Below are positions 1,697 through 7,007 of a DNA stretch of 20,131 nt, piece after piece (position 1 is the first letter of the stretch; the number at the start of each line of letters is the position of its first letter). The position numbers and the translations under genes were made by a program. A model generated the notes under the pieces. The model made no database searches. It was given only the letters and a program-made list of their open reading frames with translations, and was not told where the DNA came from. The DNA is taken from positions 1 through 20,131 of IMG/VR virus record IMGVR_UViG_3300025137_000408. One strand, given 5' to 3'. The DNA comes from a virus.

Positions 1697-2033
1697 TCCT
1701 AACTATTTCAATGTCAAATAATTTAGTACCCTCAAACCCAGTATGTTCCAATCTTTCAACATAACCTCTTTTCTTTCCTTTGGTTTTTAAATAGAATATT
1801 GTTGCACTTGTGCTACCCTCCAGTATCTGTTTATGCAACTGGCTCTCTGCCATATCTAAAGCAATGTTTTGTATATCATCTACTTGTTTCTTAAACTCCT
1901 CATCGTCTTTACACCATTGGTAAAATTGTGTTCTACTTATTTGTGCATTTTTACAAGCAGTTGTTACTACACCAAATGATTTCTCCAATGCAATTAGTAC
2001 TCCTTTTTTATTGTGTTCGGTTTGTTCGGTCAT
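1671..2033 (-). CDS. terS: Probable terminase small subunit
   Basis: This 120-residue protein has an N-terminal helix-turn-helix: residues 8-40 read as helices around LEKSFGVVTTACKNAQISRTQFYQWCKDD, split by turns. That is typical of terminase small subunits that recognise the packaging site. The middle (about 43-75) is helical, with MAESQLHKQILEGSTSATIFYLK, a pattern common in small terminases just before the C-terminal portal- or large-subunit-contacting tail. It lies directly upstream of terL with a 26-base overlap, and its ATG overlaps the stop of the FolE fusion gene as ATGA. Position and motifs agree. A different HTH protein is possible but less likely. Confidence 0.88.
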   Translation of the reverse strand: MTEQTEHNKKGVLIALEKSFGVVTTACKNAQISRTQFYQWCKDDEEFKKQVDDIQNIALDMAESQLHKQILEGSTSATIFYLKTKGKKRGYVERLEHTGFEGTKLFDIEIVRNAESDNKE

Positions 2034-2866
2034 CTTCTAATACTATTTAAAAATTCTGCTCTTACTGTTGGGTCTGTTTTAAACTTACCTAACAATTTAG
2101 TTGTGGTTGTATTTGTGTCGTGCTTCTTAACTCCTCGCATTTCCATACACATATGTTTTGCAGTTAATTGTACCGCTACTCCTATTGGGTCTAACTCCTC
2201 CCAAAGAAACTCTGCAACTTGTGTTGTGATTCTTTCTTGATTCTGTAATCGTCTGGCAAATGTTTCTAATGTTCTTGCCAATTTACTTAATCCTACTATT
2301 CTTTTATTAGGAAGATAAGCTATTGTTCCAGTACCAAAGAATGGAGCTATGTGGTGTTCACATAAACTATGAAAAGGTATTCCAGTTTGCACTATCATTT
2401 CATCATATCCCTCTCCCTCAAAACTCGTACAAGTCCAATCTGGTGGATTTAAAAACTCTGTAAAGAACTTAATGTATCTTTTAGGTGTGTCTAATAAACC
2501 CTCTCTATTTACATCTTCACCAAAGTATTGTAGTAATCTTCTCACATTATCCTCTACTGTTTCGGTTGTGTCTTGCTCTTTAGATTCCCAAGGAAACACT
2601 AACCAATCATCTTTCTTTTCAAATCTTTTATCAATTAATGCTATAAATGGTTTGTTATGTTTTGCATATCTCTCCATTGTTTTACCACTATCAATAAGGT
2701 CATCAATAATTACATCTGCTTCTTCAATGTTATTTGTTGGGTTTCCAGTTAGTCCTGCAACTATTACACCACCTCTTGGTACTCCATAGTATTTGGTGTC
2801 TTTATTGTAATCGTTTGTTATTTTATTTAGCCTTGAAAAAACTTCTTCCCAATGAACGAACTCCAT
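2030..2866 (-). CDS. folE: Gpt-like phosphoribosyltransferase fused to GTP cyclohydrolase I (FolE)
   Basis: This 278-residue protein has two domains. Residues 1-95 resemble a type I phosphoribosyltransferase: YGVPRGG at 27-33, the PRPP loop VIIDDLIDSGKT at 52-63, and WLVFPWE at 88-94, which parallels the base-contacting WIEQPWD segment of E. coli xanthine-guanine phosphoribosyltransferase. Residues 100-278 are GTP cyclohydrolase I: CEHH at 169-172 and HMC at 238-240 supply the zinc ligands (C169, H172, C240 by family analogy) and the C-terminal helical tail is complete. FolE turns GTP into dihydroneopterin triphosphate, the first step to 7-deazaguanines. The start at 2866 gives the full transferase fold. 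The gene is flanked by terS (ATGA) and a tiny membrane-protein gene that overlaps by 44 bases. FolE activity is likely; the substrate of the fused transferase is inferred. Confidence 0.92.
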   Translation of the reverse strand: MEFVHWEEVFSRLNKITNDYNKDTKYYGVPRGGVIVAGLTGNPTNNIEEADVIIDDLIDSGKTMERYAKHNKPFIALIDKRFEKKDDWLVFPWESKEQDTTETVEDNVRRLLQYFGEDVNREGLLDTPKRYIKFFTEFLNPPDWTCTSFEGEGYDEMIVQTGIPFHSLCEHHIAPFFGTGTIAYLPNKRIVGLSKLARTLETFARRLQNQERITTQVAEFLWEELDPIGVAVQLTAKHMCMEMRGVKKHDTNTTTTKLLGKFKTDPTVRAEFLNSIRR

Positions 2867-2957: not shown

Positions 2958-3097
2958 TTTTTATCTTTATTAATTAACCAGTTTTTTAGTTTGTCTATTA
3001 ATACCAATACCTCGTCTGGCTCCATTGTTATTGCACAACATTCGTTTAAATTTTCTTCTATTTCTAATACTATTTGTAATGCTTCTTGGTTTGTCAT
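2954..3097 (-). CDS. Small hypothetical protein, 47 aa
   Basis: This 47-residue, mostly helical protein begins MTNQEALQIVLEIEENLNEC and ends with a lysine-rich tail. It has an acidic amphipathic N-terminal helix, a C-C pair at residues 20-21 and a second helix around VLVLIDKLKNWL. It is joined at both ends by ATGA overlaps, to queE upstream and to the tiny membrane-protein gene downstream, so it is very likely translated. I recognise no family. A small helical adaptor or regulator would fit, but nothing shows it. Confidence 0.65.
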   Translation of the reverse strand: MTNQEALQIVLEIEENLNECCAITMEPDEVLVLIDKLKNWLINKDKK

Positions 3098-3882
3098 ACT
3101 TCCCTTTTATCTTCAAATGCAATAATGTGTGGTCGCCAAGTCATTCTATATCCATTATCCCTTACCCAATTAAATAAACGAGGATAAGATTTATATAATG
3201 CTTTTCTTGTATCGCCTGCAGGCATAAACCATACTTTGTCTTTTGGCACGTTTAAAGTACTTATGCACATTAATATTTCTGTTAATGCTTTTGAATCTAA
3301 TCCGTCCCATACTGGTTTAATATGATAGTCGGAATGATACTCTATACTTTTTTTAATCGCATCATAATTTAATCTAAGTTTGTTATGTTGCTTTATCATT
3401 CTTTCGTCTGTAATATTTCCTTGTGGAGTTTCTACGCCAAGTACTGGAACGCTATTGCTAAACTTAGGACTAATAGATAACAAATTAATAGGATAATCTG
3501 TGGCGATAAAGTGTGAGCCCTCCGTTTCAATAGTGATAAAAATTTTATTATCATAAGCAAAGTGTGTTAATTCATTTACTAATTTTTTGTGCATTGTCGG
3601 ACTACCACCAGTAAGCATCATTTCTTTTATGTGTGGATTATTCTTATATGCTTTTATTATATCATTAAAATTATATTGTCCTTTCTCTGGGTGGATACTT
3701 GTGTACCAAGAGTCGCACCAACCCCCCTCCCCAAAGTAACATCTATGAGTGCAACCAGTTGTTCTTATTACTATGGTTGGAAAACCTGCCCTTGAACCCT
3801 CGGATTGTACTGCAGTATAAACTTCTACAATAGGTAAGTTTTTATTATAATCTTCTATTCTACCTACTAATTGGTTGCTCAT
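3094..3882 (-). CDS. queE: 7-carboxy-7-deazaguanine synthase (QueE), radical SAM enzyme
   Basis: QueE turns 6-carboxytetrahydropterin into 7-carboxy-7-deazaguanine using S-adenosylmethionine and a 4Fe-4S cluster. With the start I prefer, at 3882 (MSNQLVGRIE), the protein has 262 residues. A start at 3912 is possible but would extend the overlap with queD from 23 to 53 bases. Visible motifs are QSEGSRAGFP at 26-35 near the N-terminus, the cluster ligands C44, C48 and C56 in a C-x3-C-x7-C spacing within TTGCTHRCYFGEGGWCDSWY, and the SAM-binding TGGSP at 91-95. The insert between the second and third cysteines differs from the usual radical SAM CxxxCxxC. The gene sits between queD and folE, the other two enzymes of the pathway, which supports the call strongly. 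Confidence 0.92.
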   Translation of the reverse strand: MSNQLVGRIEDYNKNLPIVEVYTAVQSEGSRAGFPTIVIRTTGCTHRCYFGEGGWCDSWYTSIHPEKGQYNFNDIIKAYKNNPHIKEMMLTGGSPTMHKKLVNELTHFAYDNKIFITIETEGSHFIATDYPINLLSISPKFSNSVPVLGVETPQGNITDERMIKQHNKLRLNYDAIKKSIEYHSDYHIKPVWDGLDSKALTEILMCISTLNVPKDKVWFMPAGDTRKALYKSYPRLFNWVRDNGYRMTWRPHIIAFEDKREV

Positions 3883-4267
3883 ATATAACCTTACTTGATT
3901 TTGTTTCTGCAAATTCTATTTTAACTATTGGCATTTTAGCTTCGTTTCTTATTCTATTAAACAACCATATTGCCATATTCTCTGCACTTGTTTCAAAAGG
4001 AACAACTTTATATTCTTCTCCTGCTAATTCTAACAACTCTACCAAAGGGTCGTCTTGACTTAATAAAAAATGGTGGTCGTACTCTTTTATTATTGGCTCT
4101 ACATTTTTATCAATATCACTAAATAACATTGTTACTCCATTTGTCATAGTATCAAATTCAAATGTACAAGTAACATCATAGGTGTGTCCGTGAGGTCTTC
4201 CACATTTTATTCCTGCTTCTTTGTTTCTGTGTCCTGCATAGAAGTAATATTTTTTTTCTATTTTCAT
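3860..4267 (-). CDS. queD: 6-carboxytetrahydropterin synthase (QueD)
   Basis: QueD converts dihydroneopterin triphosphate, the FolE product, to 6-carboxytetrahydropterin, the QueE substrate. This 135-residue protein has the complete site: zinc ligands H13, H26 and H28 (the last two in PHGHTYDV), a likely catalytic C22 in KCGRPHGH, D64-H65 in EYDHHFLL, and TSAENMA at 93-99 with E96, plus E121 near the C-terminus for pterin binding. Length is normal for the family. Its ATG overlaps the stop of the glycosyltransferase gene as ATGA, and its 3' end overlaps queE. A eukaryote-like PTPS activity is possible in principle but the neighbours make QueD far more likely. Confidence 0.93.
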   Translation of the reverse strand: MKIEKKYYFYAGHRNKEAGIKCGRPHGHTYDVTCTFEFDTMTNGVTMLFSDIDKNVEPIIKEYDHHFLLSQDDPLVELLELAGEEYKVVPFETSAENMAIWLFNRIRNEAKMPIVKIEFAETKSSKVIYEQPISR

Positions 4268-5265
4268 ATTAAATAATTTAACATATTTTCAAAACTATTA
4301 TTATATAAATTCTTATACCTTTCATCTATCTTATAATCATCAGATAAATATTTTTTTATTGTTTCTATATCCTCTCTTTCAAATAAACATTTTTCTGGTA
4401 ACATTTCTGGATAACACAAAGCATTAGGCACAACTACTCTACAATTATATATTAAGGCTTCTCGCAAGGTATAACCAAATGTTTCTTGATATGCAGTAGA
4501 TAAATAATATTTAGAATCAGATAGTAGAGAATAATATTCTGCCTTTGTTAGATTGTTTAAATATGTTGCGTTAATAGGTAATTCATATCCACAATCTTTG
4601 TTAGAAGATGAGGTAATAAGAAAATCTTTTTCTGGCATAGCTTCAACAATTTTTAAAAAATCAGACACACCTTTTTCTTTTGCCATTCTGTGTGGAAAAA
4701 TTACCACATCTTTTTTAGGATTAATTATTGGATAAACTTTATATGCTTCTTCATTATTCCAAACACAACCAGTAACCTTAATTTTATCCTCATCTATCAT
4801 AAAATAATTCATAACATTTTCTTTATGAAACTGACTGCCAACAAAAATAATATCACATACTGAATGCCAAGCTCTTTCAACAACATTACTCCAAGCCTTT
4901 AATTTTTGAACGAAATCAAACTTATCAGCTCTACCTGCGTGATTAAATGCCGCTACTTTAACATTTATATCTTGTAGCTCTGCCATATATTTAACTGCAT
5001 CTAAACCACTAAAGAATATATCAGCAAAGAAAAACCAATCGCCATTATTTACTTCTCCTCTTTGAAACGCTTGACTTATCATTTGTAATTGCCTTGCCTT
5101 AAATTCAATAGTTCTTTCAATATCTAAAAACTCTCCTTTTGATATTTGTTTCTGTTCCCAGTTATTAGGATAATAGCTTTTTACTTTTCCGCTTTTATTT
5201 ACTATGTTATTCATTAACACAGTATATCTTTCTTCTAAATTTTCTAATGGTATAAAATGTATCAT
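4264..5265 (-). CDS. GT-B glycosyltransferase (GT4-like)
   Basis: This 333-residue protein has a GT-B layout. The C-terminal half carries the nucleotide-sugar domain: VVIFPHRMAKEKG at 187-199 (the usual R-x-x-x-E-K-G element), then YLSTAYQETFGYTLREAL at 254-271, in which E261 and E269 make the E-x7-E motif of GT4-type retaining enzymes. The N-terminal half (about 75-175) has the alternating strand-helix pattern of the acceptor domain, including AAFNHAG and IIFVGSQFHKENV. It is held between the small QueD-like gene and queD by ATGA overlaps on both sides. That placement suggests it acts on the modified base in phage DNA, but a role on a virion or host glycan cannot be excluded. Acceptor and sugar are unknown. 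Confidence 0.85.
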   Translation of the reverse strand: MIHFIPLENLEERYTVLMNNIVNKSGKVKSYYPNNWEQKQISKGEFLDIERTIEFKARQLQMISQAFQRGEVNNGDWFFFADIFFSGLDAVKYMAELQDINVKVAAFNHAGRADKFDFVQKLKAWSNVVERAWHSVCDIIFVGSQFHKENVMNYFMIDEDKIKVTGCVWNNEEAYKVYPIINPKKDVVIFPHRMAKEKGVSDFLKIVEAMPEKDFLITSSSNKDCGYELPINATYLNNLTKAEYYSLLSDSKYYLSTAYQETFGYTLREALIYNCRVVVPNALCYPEMLPEKCLFEREDIETIKKYLSDDYKIDERYKNLYNNSFENMLNYLI

Positions 5266-5600
5266 TCTGTAATTATTGCTCCGTTTTCGTTATCTTCTAA
5301 TACCTCAACTGAATAAGCATTAAATGTATTTAAAATGTCCTCTGCTATATCCTCACAACTTTTGCCACAAAAACAATGTGTTCTTAAATCCTCATCATAA
5401 TAAGCTATCTTTAAATAATCTATTATATCGTGTTTAAGTTTTATTATTTCTATATCTCTGTCATTGTGTGTTACTTCTTTTTCTAACCTTATGTAAAACA
5501 TATGTCTGTGTAGGCTTGATAAATAAAGCACTTCTTCTATTTGACAACTCTCCCACAAGTGTGTGCCCTCAACTCTTAAATTTACTATTATTCGTTTCAT
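5262..5600 (-). CDS. Small protein with a QueD/T-fold-like residue pattern, 112 aa
   Basis: This 112-residue protein has LRVEGTHLWESC near the N-terminus, LHRHMFYIRLEKEV at 30-43, then DRDIEIIKLKHDIIDYL, a cysteine pair CFC at 76-78, SCEDIAEDIL at 81-90, and a final strand with VEVLEDNENGAI. I recall similar small phage proteins with H-R-H and S-C-E-x-I-A motifs, without a known function. The order H14, H31-x-H33, E83-x-x-A86, E102 parallels H13, H26-x-H28, E96-x-x-A99, E121 of the QueD two genes away, so a diverged T-fold pterin or purine enzyme is a reasonable inference. No clear match to the catalytic Cys22 or Asp64-His65 is seen. ATGA overlaps join it to dpdA and the glycosyltransferase. 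Confidence 0.75.
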   Translation of the reverse strand: MKRIIVNLRVEGTHLWESCQIEEVLYLSSLHRHMFYIRLEKEVTHNDRDIEIIKLKHDIIDYLKIAYYDEDLRTHCFCGKSCEDIAEDILNTFNAYSVEVLEDNENGAIITE

Positions 5601-6508
5601 AGTTTTACTTTTTTATAGTTATCATATATTAAAGTATCATTACATAGGTGTTCATTTATGTATAATATTTGATTAGCTTGTAAGGAATTAGCTATTGCTA
5701 AAAATAAATTAAGACCTAATCTCTTTGCATACTTTTGATATTCAATATATGCCATTGTATTAATTATTGTAGCTATACTTTTAGAACCTTTATGGTTTTC
5801 TAAATCACTAAATTCTTTAGGAGTAATTTTTAATTTTTCTAATATCATTTTTAATTTTAAAGGTATCTTCTTTTTTCTTTGAAGTATATCTCTGTGGGCA
5901 ATTCCTTTAATGCCATTATCAAAATATGAAATAATACCATATACTTGTGATGCTTGTACCCAACTACTACTATCAACAGAATGTAATGGCACCCTAAAAA
6001 TATCATTGTATTGTACAAAACCAAGTGCGTGAATATCAGCTTGTGTTTTTAAATAAACATCTTGATACCTTTTCAACATCCAATCTCCCCTATTTGTTAC
6101 ACCACCTGCAACACACAAATGTTTCTGATTCTGTACTGCCTCTTTAACATAACTCCAATCCTTATCATATTCTGTAAAAACAAACATAGGATTAAATCCT
6201 CTTTTTAACATTGTCTGATAATTACTTTTTGTTTTGGCTTCATCTTTAACAACATCTAACATAACATACTTCTCCACCTTGTGTGCATTGTGTTCTAAAT
6301 ATTCACAGTAGCTATCTAAGTTAAGTTTGCTTATTGTTTTAGAATTGTAAATAGTAAAGGCACCGCTATCTATCATTACATTCACGTTGCCCTTTAAACT
6401 TTCGTTTACCACCAAGTCGTTAAACCCTTTACTTTTTCCTGCATAGGCATAACTTATTAATATGTTTAAATATGTATCATTTGATTTCACACCCAAGATA
6501 GTTTTCAT
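5597..6508 (-). CDS. dpdA: DpdA-like DNA deazaguanine transglycosylase
   Basis: DpdA enzymes are relatives of tRNA-guanine transglycosylase that exchange guanine in DNA for a 7-deazaguanine base. This 303-residue protein shows the TGT-type active-site elements in order: MIDSGAFT at 45-52 (compare T-D-S-G-G-F/Y-Q), YVMLDVV at 81-87 with D85, CVAGGV at 132-137, HALGF at 160-164 and SVDSSSW at 177-183, where D179 is the candidate nucleophile. The few cysteines do not form the C-terminal zinc site of tRNA enzymes. The last 90 residues are helical and unlike TGT. It overlaps the ParB-like gene by 32 bases and the next gene as ATGA. The neighbouring folE, queD and queE make a DNA role far more likely than tRNA. 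Confidence 0.85.
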   Translation of the reverse strand: MKTILGVKSNDTYLNILISYAYAGKSKGFNDLVVNESLKGNVNVMIDSGAFTIYNSKTISKLNLDSYCEYLEHNAHKVEKYVMLDVVKDEAKTKSNYQTMLKRGFNPMFVFTEYDKDWSYVKEAVQNQKHLCVAGGVTNRGDWMLKRYQDVYLKTQADIHALGFVQYNDIFRVPLHSVDSSSWVQASQVYGIISYFDNGIKGIAHRDILQRKKKIPLKLKMILEKLKITPKEFSDLENHKGSKSIATIINTMAYIEYQKYAKRLGLNLFLAIANSLQANQILYINEHLCNDTLIYDNYKKVKL

Positions 6509-7007
6509 TTAACCAATTAGATAATTTTTCTGTTATTTCAGATTTTATCTTTGCGTTTTCTGTGTCTAATGATATAACTATTTTGTCTTCTGCTACTTGT
6601 TTTTTCTCTGCTTCTTCTATATAATCTAAATCGTCCCAATCGTGTTTAATTGCATCTAATCCCCAATCTTCCAGTTGGTCGTATTCATACTGGTTGCCTA
6701 ATAAATCCCAATCCCATTCGCCGAAACCTACATTGTCTTTTATAACAAACTCTCTTTGTTGTTCTTGTGTTAGGTTATTGGCTCTTACTATATACACTTC
6801 ATTTAAACCTGCTTCGATTGATGCCTTGTATCTCATATTACCACCGAGTATAACATTCTTGTCATTTACTACTATTGGTCTTATTTCCAACATTTGAGGA
6901 AACTCCCTAATACTTTTCACAAGTTTAGAGAACTTATAATCTTTAATGATTCTTGGATTATCTGGATTCAGTACGATTTCTGATATAGATAGTTTTTCTA
7001 TTTCCAT
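6477..7007 (-). CDS. ParB-like domain protein, possible DpdB-type partner of DpdA
   Basis: This 176-residue protein begins with a ParB/sulfiredoxin-like domain: LSISEIVLNPDNPR at 6-19, RPIVVNDKNVILGGNMRYKASIEAG around 43-67 with the G-G-N-M-R-Y-K box, then TQEQQREFVIKDNVGFGEWDWDLL. Such domains bind and hydrolyse nucleotides in some families and often occur near phage DNA methylases. The C-terminal 60 residues are acidic and have no methylase motif. The gene directly precedes and overlaps dpdA. In bacterial dpd clusters a ParB-like protein, DpdB, works with DpdA, so the pairing points to a role in base insertion. That link is inference; sequence similarity to DpdB was not tested. Confidence 0.8.
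   Translation of the reverse strand: MEIEKLSISEIVLNPDNPRIIKDYKFSKLVKSIREFPQMLEIRPIVVNDKNVILGGNMRYKASIEAGLNEVYIVRANNLTQEQQREFVIKDNVGFGEWDWDLLGNQYEYDQLEDWGLDAIKHDWDDLDYIEEAEKKQVAEDKIVISLDTENAKIKSEITEKLSNWLNENYLGCEIK

Follow-up and report, generated by a model that had tools for sequence, protein, structure and literature searches.

A phosphoribosyltransferase domain fused to FolE in phage 7-deazaguanine DNA modification cassettes: a candidate sink for the guanine released by DpdA

The window, i.e., the whole stretch of 20,131 bases analyzed here, is IMG/VR record IMGVR_UViG_3300025137_000408, a fragment of a virus genome. Its minus strand, on which all features below lie, carries in this order genes for a ParB-like protein, a DpdA-like protein, a protein of 112 amino acids, a glycosyltransferase, QueD, QueE and a 278-aa fusion protein, followed by terminase genes. 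The ParB-N-like protein (6477..7007; PF02195, 9.5e-7) is a usual neighbor of the cassette, found in 43 of 87 sequences. The DpdA-like DNA-guanine transglycosylase (5597..6508) matches phrog_887 (6.6e-27), and our DpdA profile A6 matches the DNA-guanine transglycosylase of PDB entry 7ui4 (4.1e-5). Next come the 112-aa protein (5262..5600; phrog_17812), which by locus counts stands in the place of QueC, a family-1 glycosyltransferase within the cassette (4264..5265; PF00534, 1.9e-8), a QueD-like 6-carboxytetrahydropterin synthase (3860..4267; PF01242, 1.4e-23, and phrog_2389) and a QueE-like radical SAM protein (3094..3912; phrog_2076, 5.4e-50). Phage 7-deazaguanine DNA modification cassettes are composed of FolE, QueD, QueE, QueC and DpdA (Hutinet et al. 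2019, PMC6884629). The window likewise has FolE, QueD, QueE and the DpdA transglycosylase, all adjacent, whereas it differs in the 112-aa gene, the glycosyltransferase, an added phosphoribosyltransferase (PRTase) and the absence of QueC. No match to QueC was found in the window; as the record is a 20-kb fragment, QueC may lie elsewhere in the phage.

The added PRTase is the N-terminal part of the fusion protein (2030..2866). The C-terminal part, residues 105 to 276 (2030..2566), is a GTP cyclohydrolase I (FolE) domain (PF01227, 2.7e-62; phrog_2197, 7.7e-62), in agreement with the earlier note, which had proposed a Gpt-like PRTase fused to FolE from the sequence alone. It is a full PF01227 domain like FolE of the preQ0 pathway, with the metal and catalytic residues in C169-E-H-H172 and H238-M-C240, of which C169, H171, H172, H238 and C240 are invariant among the fusion homologues. 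FolE of phages 9g, Vid5, R7M and Dp-1, in contrast, has no such N-terminal domain.

The N-terminal domain (residues 1 to about 97; 2576..2866) gave only sub-threshold PRTase matches in single-sequence searches of Pfam and PDB (for PF00156, E = 0.009, under the Pfam cut-off), and its identity was settled by profile, fold and intermediate sequences. A profile of 51 such domains matched xanthine PRTases (7.9e-5) and E. coli XGPRT (1.6e-3) in the PDB, aligning in two blocks with the middle absent. The AF2 model of residues 1 to 100 (pLDDT 94.4, pTM 0.85) has the type I PRTase fold, and its best Foldseek matches in the PDB were 6-oxopurine PRTases of the HGXPRT/XGPRT kind (prob 1.00, TMq 0.61-0.68, E 1.0e-3 to 2.4e-3), including Sulfolobus HGXPRT with GMP (E = 1.0e-3), E. 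coli XPRT with GMP (TMq 0.68, prob 1.00) and H. pylori XGHPRT; PyrR structures were also among the matches. The best viral model was the phosphoribosyl transferase of Cellulophaga phage phiST. A family of unfused phage PRTases aligned with the fused domain at E = 2.5e-23 in hhalign, and unfused relatives, the protein of Flavobacterium phage immuto among them, clear the PF00156 cut-off (35.1 and 35.9 bits versus 26.3). Profile and model thus confirm a purine-type PRTase domain, for which enzymatic activity is predicted.

Conservation was counted over 86 fusion homologues. The PPi loop R31-G32-G33 (2768..2776; P-R-G-G at residues 30 to 33) has R31 and G33 in 100% and G32 in 97% of them and aligns with R37-G39 of E. 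coli Gpt. The PRPP loop I-D-D-L-I-D-S-G-K-T (residues 54 to 63, 2678..2707; the full motif I-I-D-D-L-I-D-S-G-K-T spans residues 53 to 63), with its two acidic residues, keeps D55, D56, D59 and T63 in 100%. The purine-contact segment W88-L-V-F-P-W-E94 (2585..2605), aligned with W134-I-E-Q-P-W-D140 of Gpt, has W88 and E94 in 100%, P92 in 99% and W93 in 95%, and K80 (2627-2629), aligned with Gpt K115, is kept in 92% and replaced in about 8%. Altogether R31, G33, D55, D56, D59, T63, W88 and E94 align with R37, G39, D88, D89, D92, T96, W134 and D140 of Gpt, in which D92, K115 and W134 are established contacts of the purine, D92 at N7. The PRPP loop and the W-x-x-x-P-W-E segment, both pointed out in the earlier note and the latter likened there to that of XGPRT, are therefore nearly invariant, and conservation of the motifs across 86 homologues rules out chance. 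The comparison of a predicted structure with Gpt, which had been suggested as a check, likewise gave a purine-type PRTase model with the pocket residues conserved.

In fold, PPi loop, PRPP loop, catalytic Asp, Lys and the W-x-x-x-P-W-D/E pocket the domain resembles XGPRT/Gpt. It differs in its fusion to FolE and in its size (about 97 residues versus 152), having lost the flexible loop and some of the C-terminal region. The loss of the flexible catalytic loop, which lies between strands 2 and 3, had been missed in the earlier note: PPi loop and PRPP loop are about 20 residues apart in the fusion versus 46 in Gpt, and the same stretch has 23 to 29 residues in unfused PRTases of the immuto type, which also lack the loop. 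This loop is thought to be important for type I PRTases, and activity can therefore not be assumed for a domain that lacks it. The median dN/dS of the PRT domain was 0.27 over 1,415 pairs and that of FolE 0.11, values that are approximate because synonymous sites are near saturation in many pairs. The PRT domain is under purifying selection, and together with the retained base-contact residues this argues that it probably still binds a purine.

The fused domain was found in 33 of 50,697 phage records, from Vibrio, Pseudomonas, Xanthomonas, Stenotrophomonas, Variovorax and Sphingomonas phages, where the fusion is mostly annotated as GTP cyclohydrolase, and a scan of viral contigs in IMG/VR yielded 80 full-length fusions. 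In genome contigs, a scan with the N-terminal domain gave 11 matches, of which one, in a Lewinella MAG, looks like a piece of the fusion and the rest are more distant. In all five phage regions examined the fusion sits between queD and dpdA. The remaining fusion records among the 60 dpdA matches listed also have dpdA; two Vibrio siblings of 1.207.B were left out of this separate check. As PF01702 and phrog_887 fail to pick up most phage DpdA proteins when whole records are searched, a lack of matches to them was not read as absence of DpdA, and our own profiles were used. DpdA is encoded at 67 of the 86 fusion loci, and the other 19 contigs end within 2.3 kb (≤2.3 kb) on the upstream side; among loci with a sufficiently long flank, none had the fusion without dpdA. 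The link to DpdA, drawn in the earlier note from this single locus, thus proved stronger than that note could know: other phages with dpdA and the fusion exist, and the wide occurrence in phages without dpdA that would have spoken against the idea was not seen. A FolE tree, which left out FolE of phages with an unfused PRTase because the CEHH motif filter missed them, is compatible with one fusion event or up to four. In the annotation of Pseudomonas phage PaMx25 the PRTase domain is split off (L002:8862-9236): the annotated folE begins at an internal start of the open reading frame, and the region of the PRTase domain is assigned to a hypothetical protein in a different frame.

The PRTase also occurs as a separate gene. 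Flavobacterium phage immuto carries queD, queE, the PRTase gene, folE, a MazG-like gene, dpdA, a formyltransferase gene and queF in one stretch; its PRTase (gp211) has the same pocket as the fusion, is also loop-less and lies next to FolE, but is a gene of its own. A scan with the immuto PRTase yielded 133 relatives, and 80 loci were retained from them. FolE is encoded in 71 of 81 stretches with an unfused PRTase, on the same strand in all 71, and the two genes are adjacent in 62 of these 71 loci; the PRTase gene immediately precedes that of FolE in 28 and immediately follows it in 34. The 25 whole records with an unfused PRTase include 24 with FolE, 17 with DpdA and 4 with another TGT-like protein; the last 4 of the 25, without a DpdA or TGT-like protein, are fragments. 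Four loci (L158:7379-8641, L166:4121-5374, L175:6366-7565 and L176:3786-5063) encode TGT-like proteins of a third type, about 400 to 420 aa long, downstream of their unfused PRTase. One of the four matches PF01702 at E = 6e-4, under the cut-off, and the other three are its homologues; possibly the type is DpdA2-like. A MazG-like nucleotide pyrophosphohydrolase is encoded near PRTase and FolE in 42 of the 81 unfused loci (e.g., L098:10326-10850), and in phiST the MazG-like gene overlaps that for FolE. This protein may act on guanine nucleotides of the deazaguanine pathway.

Gpt-like PRTases accompany the pathway in further phage lineages. In Brevundimonas phage MaInes, FolE is immediately followed by a loop-bearing XPRT, and a DpdA-like ORF (8.9e-10) is present; Pseudomonas jumbo phage MIJ3 has gpt adjoining queE and a TGT-like ORF (3e-21). 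In Synechococcus phage BUCT-ZZ01, QueE, XGPRT, QueD and FolE are clustered, with a weak TGT-like ORF (1.7e-4). Cellulophaga phage phiST encodes a PRTase, FolE, QueD, QueE and a DpdA-like ORF (3.7e-33); its PRTase (M4T1R9) has the same pocket as the fusion, but is a separate gene away from FolE with a longer loop region. Campylobacter phage CC_R7 combines a PRTase and FolE with a DpdA-like ORF (6.9e-10). The latter is a hypothetical protein of 277 aa (L202:2324-3157, i.e., 177823-178656 on the minus strand; hhalign 93.7%); Campylobacter phages with dADG have been given as lacking DpdA, with another insertion route supposed (PMC6884629). With E. coli Gpt as the query, tblastn against the 50,697 phage records returned 16 matches, of which 11 belong to Cellulophaga, Flavobacterium and Brevundimonas phages of this kind, with a Gpt-like PRTase, FolE and a DpdA- or TGT-like protein. 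The other five are two nearly identical small contigs resembling E. coli, a Salmonella record and two fecal contigs without annotation, all either poorly documented or host-like. Within the sensitivity of tblastn, a Gpt-like PRTase in an isolated phage thus comes close to marking the deazaguanine pathway.

The reverse does not hold. In the dpdA phages 9g, Vid5, R7M, ART, R26L, Pan1, Dp-1 and R29Z no annotated PRTase was found within flanks of up to 8 kb, and FolE of these phages lacks a PRTase domain. The PRTase is an accessory of dpdA systems, unless it is encoded elsewhere in the PRTase-negative dpdA genomes. As many dpdA phages have no PRTase nearby, the exchange does not depend on a guanine loop. 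The interpretation in the earlier note, a closed loop driving the exchange by returning freed guanine to FolE as GTP, was supported in part: the domain identity and the tie to DpdA stand, whereas the PRTase activity, its substrate and the closed loop are putative.

TGT-type enzymes exchange bases without energy input, and FolE, the first enzyme of deazaguanine synthesis, uses GTP. We consider it reasonably probable that the N-terminal domain is a minimal guanine (6-oxopurine) PRTase serving DNA base exchange, which recaptures the guanine released by DpdA as GMP, keeps the exchange going forward and feeds the GTP pool of FolE. For each 7-deazaguanine base inserted by DpdA one guanine is freed, and the PRTase would convert it with PRPP to GMP. 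The leaving guanine, otherwise able to re-enter by reverse exchange, would thereby be removed at the cost of PRPP. Host kinases would turn GMP into GTP, supplying FolE, and the fusion would set both activities at 1:1 in the same place. Domain identity, the conserved pocket, purifying selection and the genomic linkage with FolE and DpdA in several lineages, both fused and unfused, are the data on which this proposal rests; from them we infer that the domain is catalytic, that guanine is its substrate, that it acts as a sink and that host kinases return GMP to GTP. In human TGT, preQ0 can be displaced by guanine whereas preQ1 and queuine cannot, and the replacement of N7 by C7 is described as a critical recognition element barring 7-deazaguanines from salvage by HPRT (PMC8136771). 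If DpdA behaves like human TGT, free guanine would reverse a preQ0-type modification, and these findings fit a need to remove guanine.

Several points count against the guanine sink. The flexible loop is deleted in fused and immuto-type PRTases, K80 is replaced in about 8%, and several dpdA phages have no PRTase in the region examined. Hosts generally have purine salvage PRTases of their own, and GMP is two kinase steps short of GTP; no kinases for these steps were seen in the cassette of the window. Linkage with FolE is also tighter than that with DpdA, and FolE rather than DpdA could be the primary partner.

This last point is what would be expected of general purine salvage that raises GTP for FolE, with guanine coming from any source, such as breakdown of host DNA or RNA, and the leaving base of DpdA not being special: FolE is the closest and most constant partner of the PRTase (encoded in 24 of the 25 whole records and next to the PRTase in 62 of 71 loci). 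With a DpdA or TGT-like protein accompanying the PRTase in nearly every sufficiently complete record, we nevertheless regard such a role as rather improbable. The presence of the PRTase in deazaguanine cassettes, including those of Campylobacter phages given as lacking DpdA, would also suit an enzyme that converts the 7-deazaguanine base to a nucleotide for DNA polymerase to insert, whether in place of DpdA or in addition to it. The Asp aligned with the N7-contacting D92 of Gpt is invariant, however, which points to guanine rather than a deazaguanine as the substrate; C7 for N7 is reported to be critical in excluding 7-deazaguanines from HPRT (PMC8136771), and PRTase phages have DpdA, a DpdA-like ORF being present even in CC_R7. 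Action on deazaguanines was hence rejected as very unlikely.

The lost loop is the reason for retaining, as unlikely, a non-catalytic domain that would modulate FolE upon binding PRPP or a purine nucleotide, in the manner of the PRTase-fold regulators PurR or PyrR. The dN/dS of the PRT domain, above that of FolE, and the PyrR structures among the Foldseek matches would fit such a sensor. The nucleobase-contact residues D59, K80, W88 and P92-W93-E94, however, are kept besides the PRPP residues, and cassettes of this kind also contain unfused and loop-bearing Gpt-like copies, contrary to what would be expected of a regulator bound to FolE. These unfused copies, in both gene orders, are equally difficult to explain by a neutral fusion that hitch-hikes with FolE and has no function, as are the Gpt-like copies in other lineages and the purifying selection; although many dpdA phages do without a PRTase, we give this explanation hardly any credence.

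Within the guanine sink proposal, the constant partner FolE favors GTP supply and the near-constant DpdA favors the sink, and the best reading is that both matter. More tentatively, and somewhat short of probable in our judgment, a dedicated guanine PRTase may be a recurrent, so far unremarked accessory of transglycosylase-based phage DNA modification, a sink that makes a reversible exchange go all the way and returns the leaving base to the pathway producing the incoming one. It would have arisen repeatedly, both as a gene of its own and fused to FolE, with one large lineage working without the flexible loop. In the open-access literature we found no description of a PRTase-FolE fusion or of guanine salvage in deazaguanine phages, and the accounts of phage 7-deazaguanine found there leave the fate of the guanine released by DpdA untreated, a question raised by these cassettes. 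If there is such a sink dedicated to guanine, how far and in which direction DNA modification proceeds would hinge on purine salvage, and a compact PRTase without the flexible loop would be a useful enzymological exception.

Apart from the PRTase, the fusion cassettes vary at the position of QueC, which is needed for preQ0 and its derivatives. Among the fusion-cassette loci, 34 have only queC, 28 only the 112-aa gene (phrog_17812) and none both (Fisher p = 1e-14, with loci treated without regard to relatedness). The 112-aa protein may act on 7-carboxy-7-deazaguanine instead of QueC. Further phage 7-deazaguanine derivatives were reportedly described by Cui et al. in 2023. A sugar on the deazaguanine base, added by the cassette glycosyltransferase, is conceivable; 13 of the 14 glycosyltransferase-bearing loci have the 112-aa gene and lack QueC.
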